Source: Suipraeoptans intestinalis (lineage in GTDB: Bacteria; Bacillota; Clostridia; Lachnospirales; Lachnospiraceae). From it: a stretch of 64,000 bases of DNA. Numbering within the stretch: position 1 is the stretch's first letter; each line of letters opens with the position of its first letter. The notes beneath the pieces are model-generated. The model was given only the letters and a program-made list of their open reading frames with translations. It did not search any database and was not told where the DNA came from. Shown here piece after piece: positions 33,176-33,652 of the stretch. The stretch is taken from the NCBI RefSeq assembly GCF_009696485.1, contig NZ_VULY01000018.1:1003001-1067000 (forward strand). The letters are read 5' to 3'. The translations under genes were made by a program, and so were the position numbers.

Positions 33176-33652
33176 TTACAGCTGAATAGATGTTACTGCG
33201 AGGACGGAGATCAGAAGCGCCAGAATGGCGTAGGTCTCTACCATGGCCGGGATCAGCATCGCCTTACCAAACTGATCCGGTTTTTTTGCTACGATTCCGA
33301 TAGCTGCCGCAGCCGTTTTTCCCTGATGCTTTCCGGAGATCAATCCTACGATCCCGATAGGAAGACATGCCGCCAGGATCAAAAGTCCTGTCTGTACGGA
33401 AATCTCTGCGGCTCCTCCGCCCAGGATCCCTACCTTCGCCAGTGTAATGAAGCCTACCAGAAGTCCATAGATCCCCTGGGTTCCCGGAAGCAGCTGCACG
33501 ATCAGAACCTTACCAAACTTAGACGGGTCTTCTGATACGACTCCGGACGCTGCCTGACCTGCGACTCCAACTCCGATAGCAGATCCGGCTCCTGCCAGAA
33601 ATACTGCTACCGCTGCTCCCAACAATGCATAAACGATTCCTAAACTACTCAT
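33176..33652 (-). CDS. ntpK: V/A-type ATPase proteolipid subunit K, Na+-type
   Basis: Membrane rotor-ring subunit. 158 residues forming two fused hairpins (four helices). The ion-binding set known from the crystal structure of Enterococcus hirae NtpK is complete: L55, T58 and Q59 in [11 protein letters not shown]110 in SGKHQGK, and E139 in AMVETYAIL. This is the signature of Na+ coordination; H+ proteolipids lack the Gln/Thr set. Only the second hairpin carries the ion-binding Glu, as in other 16-kDa type K subunits. It starts just after the subunit I stop. Confidence 0.96.

Follow-up and report, generated by a model that had tools for sequence, protein, structure and literature searches.

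Enterococcus hirae possesses a Na+ V-ATPase, which is an ATP-driven pump, and also an F-type H+ enzyme. Its ntp operon, in which we take the subunit order to be I, K, E, C, (F/G), A, B, D, includes an ntpJ-like K+ transporter. A Na+ A1AO ATP synthase with a V-type c subunit is reportedly present in a mesophilic bacterium, Eubacterium limosum, to go by the title of a paper of Litty and Mueller from 2020. Pseudobutyrivibrio ruminis belongs to the Lachnospiraceae. For this species one Na+ and one H+ two-sector ATPase, Rnf, and Ech as a H+ pump are described (excerpt of PMC11187502, on Schoelmerich et al., 2020). In the Blautia pangenome the V-type enzyme is largely core and the F-type enzyme is not (excerpt of PMC8107234), and work on Roseburia names an F-type ATPase and Rnf, the ion of the latter being left unclear there (excerpt of PMC7478625).

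The pairing of Na+ and H+ rotary enzymes is already known in many bacteria. According to an excerpt of the ProAD paper, predicted ions (H+/Na+) differ in 1,137 of the 1,388 genera with several rotary ATPases, 890 genera have an F-type plus an A/V-type enzyme in one genome, and two predicted H+ or two predicted Na+ F/A enzymes are found in 220 and 23 genera respectively (PMC11738941). The pairing described below had been presented as notable in the initial annotation; by these figures, differing ions are typical of genera with several such enzymes (excerpt of PMC11738941). The figures in that excerpt are totals by genus and hold no comparison of Na+ V-type with Na+ F-type rings within a family (PMC11738941). 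What is added here is the pattern of these two ring types in the Lachnospiraceae; no paper stating their exclusion within the family was found among the full-text matches listed, a set whose coverage leaves out most subscription journals. The DNA analysed (the window) is a stretch of 64,000 nucleotides from Suipraeoptans intestinalis, a member of this family. Its nearest named K relatives (Schaedlerella, Mediterraneibacter and others) are likewise Lachnospiraceae, a placement that we presume for some of them.

Results

Two rotary ATPase operons in one window

The window contains a V-type and an F-type gene cluster (Table 1). From 36018 down to 27397, transcription of the V-type genes runs through a stalk-like protein of 105 aa and then subunits I, K, E, C, F, A, B and D. 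From I onwards this is the order we assume for the E. hirae operon, and the core subunits A, B, D, I and K are all in this single cluster. Curated NCBIfam cut-offs are passed by A, B, D, F and K; the matches of the stalk protein and of C, E and I stay under them. Subunit I of E. hirae (8wci) aligns over nearly its full length with subunit I of the window. Unlike in the E. hirae ntp operon, no ntpJ-like gene follows subunit D, directly after which a shikimate kinase-family gene is found. In the F-type cluster, which extends from 52979 to 46812 in the direction of transcription, the order is a, c, b, delta, alpha, gamma, beta, epsilon. It holds all eight subunits, of which seven pass the cut-off, delta being just under it. 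By their gene content both the V-type and the F-type operon look complete. An open frame for NtpK had been annotated at 33176-33652 and is indeed present (158 aa), but on the minus strand; read on the plus strand, the span contains stops.

Table 1. Genes of the V-type and F-type ATPases, with window positions.
Feature	Position	Strand	Evidence and remarks
V-type peripheral-stalk subunit, 105 aa, AhaH/NtpF-like	35701..36018	-	TIGR02926 E=2.9e-4, weak, below cut-off; precedes subunit I
V-type subunit I, 671 aa	33654..35669	-	phmmer against PDB: 8wci 'V-type sodium ATPase subunit I', E=1.7e-71; NCBIfam PRK05771 matches below cut-off
V-type subunit K (NtpK)	33176..33652	-	NF005124, 198.7 bits against a cut-off of 127; complete Na+ ligand set
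V-type subunit E	32528..33121	-	weak NCBIfam matches, best E=2.6e-11, below cut-off
V-type subunit C	31549..32583 (31549-32547 in profile search)	-	NF002266 E=1.2e-52, below cut-off; start codon uncertain, overlaps subunit E
V-type subunit F	31236..31556	-	NF002384, above cut-off
V-type catalytic subunit A	29447..31216	-	NF003220, 921.7 bits, above cut-off
V-type subunit B	28073..29443	-	NF003235, 791.7 bits, above cut-off
V-type subunit D	27397..28056	-	NF001543, above cut-off
F-type subunit a	52317..52979	-	NF004486, above cut-off
F-type subunit c (AtpE), 75 aa	52073..52300	-	TIGR01260, above cut-off; I24, E57, A58, T59, Y62, proton-type site
F-type subunit b	51547..52020	-	TIGR01144, above cut-off
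F-type subunit delta	51041..51550	-	TIGR01145, 50.1 bits, below cut-off of 57.5
F-type subunit alpha	49530..51035	-	TIGR00962, above cut-off
F-type subunit gamma	48625..49515	-	TIGR01146, above cut-off; start chosen in analysis, listed ORF starts at 49791
F-type subunit beta	47222..48628	-	TIGR01039, above cut-off
F-type subunit epsilon	46812..47222	-	TIGR01216, above cut-off

The distance between NtpK and the F-type c gene is about 19 kb, in agreement with the initial annotation, and both are on one contig of 2.29 Mb in an assembly of 2.6 Mb (97.13% complete, 5.52% contamination). Three further stretches of F operon with a c gene were found, two on contig C15 in opposite directions and one on C17 (L003, L004 and L006 of G000). 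Compared with the window they showed 0 mismatches and 8-23 gaps (99.3-99.7%); one copy, when read through, carries frame breaks. Because they differ by gaps alone, a second F-type enzyme was rejected and the stretches were taken as erroneous duplicates of the same operon, by which automatic ATPase counts for this genome would be inflated. PF00137 matched NtpK and AtpE c only, plus the duplicate copies of the latter. An N-ATPase as second enzyme was also rejected, since no N-type c was matched by PF00137 and delta and b are separate genes.

Between the two operons a run of plus-strand ORFs (37781-42289) encodes a protein with a ParB N-terminal domain (38209-39264), some small ones that have no Pfam match, and a 350-aa HTH_38-domain protein (41237-42289), which we take to resemble an IS30-type transposase. 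The run may be a mobile-element remnant.

Ion sites of the two rings

The alignment of subunits K and c with solved rings, proposed earlier as a check, was carried out: the 2bl2 ligands are all kept in NtpK, and the Gln and Ser of 1yce are replaced in the F-type ring. The top PDB match of NtpK by phmmer was 2bl2, the K chain of the E. hirae V-type sodium ATPase (E=6.7e-34). In this alignment L61, T64, Q65, Y68, Q110 and E139 of 2bl2 are opposite L55, T58, Q59, Y62, Q110 and E139 of NtpK. The E. hirae Na+ ligand set that had been read from L55, T58, Q59, Q110 and E139 was thereby confirmed, and the tyrosine is identical as well (2bl2). Between its hairpins NtpK has 6 residues more than E. hirae K. 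Among 41 NtpK homologues of the family panel described below (own included, identity down to 44%), L55, T58, Y62, Q110 and E139 are invariant, and the position of Q59 is Q in 40 and N in one. Chain 6qum, presumably from Thermus, has Leu at this position in the PDB alignment. The position of E. hirae Q65 is also said to be aliphatic in predicted H+ enzymes, in the excerpt from which the roles of the K ligands were taken (PMC2359735). Together with the Val that second A/V-type rings have at the Gln110-type position (see below), the Leu of 6qum indicates that the Na+ site does not come automatically with the fold. By its K ligands and core cluster the enzyme fits an E. hirae-type V/A-ATPase, with Na+ as the predicted ion.

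In the F-type c subunit, I24 is opposite Gln32 and A58 opposite Ser66 of the Ilyobacter tartaricus ring 1yce, which bears out the earlier reading of these two residues; E57, T59 and Y62 are retained. Its best PDB matches overall, 4bem (which we take to be the A. woodii ring) and 1yce, are Na+ rings. As these are its nearest solved relatives, the ring looks like one from which Na+ ligands have been lost. With the acidic residue kept and the Na+ ligand set incomplete it is of the proton type, H+ being the predicted ion. Of the 68 c rows assigned to the proton type in the panel (tandem copies counted), 55 combine Ile or Leu at 24 with Ala at 58, and a proton-class F ring stands beside a full-set F ring in 33 panel genomes.

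Na+ V-type and Na+ F-type rings rarely co-occur in Lachnospiraceae

The c and K genes of 150 Lachnospiraceae genomes, one per genus and own included, were fetched and their ligand positions read. To be classed as Na+ type, an F-type ring had to have, in I. tartaricus numbering, Gln or Glu at 32, Glu at 65, Ser or Thr at both 66 and 67, and Tyr at 70. Glu at 32 was allowed since F. nucleatum has a Na+ rotor whose ring carries Glu32 (excerpt of PMC3692424). For the V-type ring, a two-hairpin K with the side-chain ligands of E. hirae was required; of the 46 so classed, five were judged from alignments made by eye, and one carries Asn in place of Q59. Because a Na+ ring is also able to carry H+ in the absence of Na+ (excerpt of PMC2359735), 'Na+ type' means Na+-capable and not Na+-only.

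A complete Na+ V-type ring was present in 46 and a complete Na+ F-type ring in 99 of the 150 genomes. The V-type ring alone was found in 43, the F-type ring alone in 96, both in 3 (G016, G092, G108) and neither in 8 (Fisher p ~1e-25, n=150, in a test that treats genera as independent, which they are not). The two rotor designs rarely co-occur in the family, and the V-type enzyme seems to take the place of the Na+ F-type enzyme of most relatives. In G016 and G092 the F ring of the Na+ class presumably resembles N-ATPase c.

Five K proteins with two hairpins but a divergent sequence (G041, G130, G106, G134, G074) had escaped the first V-type count of 41 (own included). These were found by following up unexplained PF00137 matches, the genomes concerned being derived by hand from counts; by eye they keep T, Q, Y, Q and E and have Ala, not Leu, at the backbone-carbonyl position. 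Subunits with the motif 'GMFETAY' were rejected as V-type: their sequences are those of N-terminally extended F-type c that lacks Gln at 24, and they were counted as H+. Second c genes (G102:C1, G135:C33), weak small matches (G113:C8, G013:C2) and PF00137 matches under the cut-off (G111:C55, G032:C39) were left out of the classification. As these six genomes already have a Na+ F-type ring, the table is unchanged. Two of the eight genomes with neither ring, G077 and G145 (99% and 93% complete), had no PF00137 match at all and are possibly without a rotary ATPase; Rnf-type proteins were found in G145 and none in G077.

The association was also examined on a MetK tree made by a quick method. Its 89 genomes are 90 chosen ones (all 45 other Na+ V-type genomes, all 8 with neither ring and 37 with a Na+ F-type ring picked by hand), minus G024 and G096, which had no MetK, plus the window. 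The MetK sequences of some genomes were incomplete (only 127 aa in G091), and among paralogues the best match was used. On the best tree the Na+ V-type ring changes at least 26 times and the Na+ F-type ring 25 times, much of this on unsupported branches. In 8 supported independent pairs differing in the V-type ring, the F-type ring differed on average in the opposite direction in 5.3, in the same direction in 0.0 and not at all in 2.7. In the reverse pairing (n=6) the V-type ring was opposite in 5.5, the same in 0.0 and without difference in 0.5. The sign test gave a median p of 0.06 for the V-type pairs and 0.03 for the reverse, from a single gene with few supported branches. The independent pairs agree in direction, at low power, and are consistent with the exclusion.

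Proton-type partner rotors

A predicted proton-type rotor was found, partly by match shape only, in 44 of the 46 Na+ V-type genomes: 29 have an F-type proton rotor, 15 only a second A/V-type rotor and 2 neither. Among the 96 genomes with the Na+ F-type ring only, 32 have an F-type proton rotor and 57 a proton rotor of either kind. The raw table for the F-type proton rotor (29/46 vs 32/96) gave a p of 0.001; on the MetK tree its association with the Na+ V-type ring was not significant (median p 0.25). The second A/V-type proton rotor was assigned in 62 panel genomes, mostly from match length and an open frame, and 15 were read (G008, G130 and 13 others), 8 of them from Na+ V-type genomes without an F-type proton rotor. 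By eye, all 15 show Val where Gln110 would stand and have nothing polar at the Thr67-type position; one, that of G079, keeps Ser at the Ser66-type position, beside the Glu. The candidate of G091 turned out to be a proton ring of the F type and was rejected; the same may hold for some of the unread candidates. This second rotor, a single hairpin with an N-terminal extension that keeps the Glu and has Val in place of the Gln, occurs widely in the family (L306, L308, L328-L338, L340, L341), and in L306 and L308 it adjoins ORFs that by eye resemble subunits I, F, E and A.

In seven panel genomes, too, a V-type K shares a contig with a proton-type F c, the distance being about 24 kb (G086), 27 kb (G028), 42 kb (G050), 45 kb (G125), 52 kb (G069), 59 kb (G092) and 136 kb (G062), compared with 19 kb here.

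Rnf and Ech

At the thresholds used, the S. intestinalis genome has two matches to PF02508 (Rnf-Nqr, of Rnf A/E type by family) and none to PF00146, the Ech/complex I membrane subunit. In the panel, Rnf-Nqr proteins were matched by PF02508 in 139 of the 150 genomes (own included) and PF00146 in 17, one of these matches being weak and with stops. Two of the 46 Na+ V-type genomes, G062 and G068, have no Rnf match, and Rnf is present in 5 genomes with only proton-type F rotors and no Na+ V-type ring, so that neither rule is tight.

Discussion

The ligand alignments, the operon content and the family pattern support the claim of two complete motors with different predicted ions. The reading that we consider probable is that S. 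intestinalis has a Na+ V/A-ATPase and a H+ F1Fo enzyme in one cell, with the V-type enzyme in a Na+ circuit and the two gradients exchanged via ATP. Na+ would be held between the two hairpins of K by the carbonyl of L55 and by T58, Q59, Q110 and E139 and be carried past subunit I; the F-type ring, which is without two Na+ ligands (the Gln and Ser positions), would carry protons on E57. The V-type enzyme would replace the Na+ F-type enzyme of most Lachnospiraceae relatives and couple to the Na+ gradient in a circuit with Rnf, in either direction according to load. Since no Ech/complex I membrane subunit was found by PF00146, the F-type enzyme, which would serve the proton gradient, is probably largely an ATP-driven proton pump or works on acid-efflux gradients. 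As both enzymes would share one ATP pool, the Na+ and H+ gradients would be exchangeable. Such an interconversion, already proposed in the initial annotation, which named the V-type enzyme as either a pump for Na+ or a synthase driven by it, is plausible and gains some weight from there being no redox proton pump of the PF00146 class to feed the F-type enzyme.

Whether the V-type enzyme makes ATP bears on the main alternative, in which ATP synthesis falls to the F-type enzyme and the V-type enzyme, like that of E. hirae, does no more than pump out Na+ with ATP to maintain salt and pH homeostasis. We regard this as possible but rather doubtful. The E. hirae enzyme is the closest solved relative for both K and subunit I; yet a co-occurrence of the two Na+ designs in 3 of 150 genomes is what is expected of equivalents and not of an added pump, and 15 of the 46 Na+ V-type genomes have no detected F-type proton rotor and a second A/V-type predicted proton rotor instead. 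That the V-type ring stands where relatives have the Na+ F-type ring, with Rnf in 139 of the 150 genomes, favours a Na+ circuit and a V-type enzyme capable of synthesis.

It is quite unlikely that both enzymes work mainly with H+ in the cell, the K site being an inherited relic used with protons. Such a use would be in line with the ability of Na+ rotors to translocate H+ without Na+ (excerpt of PMC2359735) and with the description of the E. hirae ring as very weakly H+-selective (excerpt of PMC3692424). Nevertheless, a relic does not explain the near-exclusion, nor ligands that are invariant or nearly so across 41 homologues with identities down to 44%, and proton-class F rings of the family do lack ligands. 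The converse, an F-type ring that still binds Na+ despite I24 and A58, we hold to be very improbable: two ligands are missing together, the Ile/Leu 24 and Ala 58 combination characterizes 55 of 68 proton-type c rows and 33 genomes have both F ring classes, even though T59 and Y62 are kept and 4bem and 1yce are the best matches. A pairing produced by assembly or binning is scarcely credible. Contamination of 5.52% at 97.13% completeness and three further F-operon copies on C15 and C17 might raise the suspicion, but the operons are 19 kb apart on one 2.29 Mb contig, the copies are erroneous duplicates and the pairing recurs in other genera.

The reading of a Na+ V-type and a H+ F-type enzyme in one cell has partial counterparts. 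With E. limosum it would share, by paper title alone, a Na+ V/A-type enzyme acting as ATP synthase. The likeness to P. ruminis consists of Na+ and H+ two-sector ATPases plus Rnf in one fermenting bacterium, the ions being predicted here, and the difference is that P. ruminis has Ech (excerpt of PMC11187502), for which PF00146 gave no match in the S. intestinalis genome. S. intestinalis offers a clean natural pair for asking how Na+ and H+ bioenergetics are divided in a fermenting gut-type bacterium that lacks an Ech/complex I-class redox proton pump. For the family, the pattern makes a testable rule of one kind of Na+ rotor per genome, F or V, seldom both, and if the predicted ion is right, generic annotation as a proton V-ATPase would be misleading for about one third of the genera sampled (46/150). 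More tentatively, the Na+ V-type and Na+ F-type enzymes may be interchangeable parts of one Na+ circuit, repeatedly swapped in the Lachnospiraceae, with the V-type enzyme as the Na+-driven synthase here and the proton rotor likewise swapped between F-type and A/V-type; this could well be so, although we lean slightly against it.

Both Na+-dependent and Na+-independent Rnf exist (excerpt of PMC4715464). Six panel genomes (G008, G024, G052, G055, G107 and G120) in which only proton-type rotors were detected have Rnf-type proteins, and are candidates for a H+-linked Rnf.
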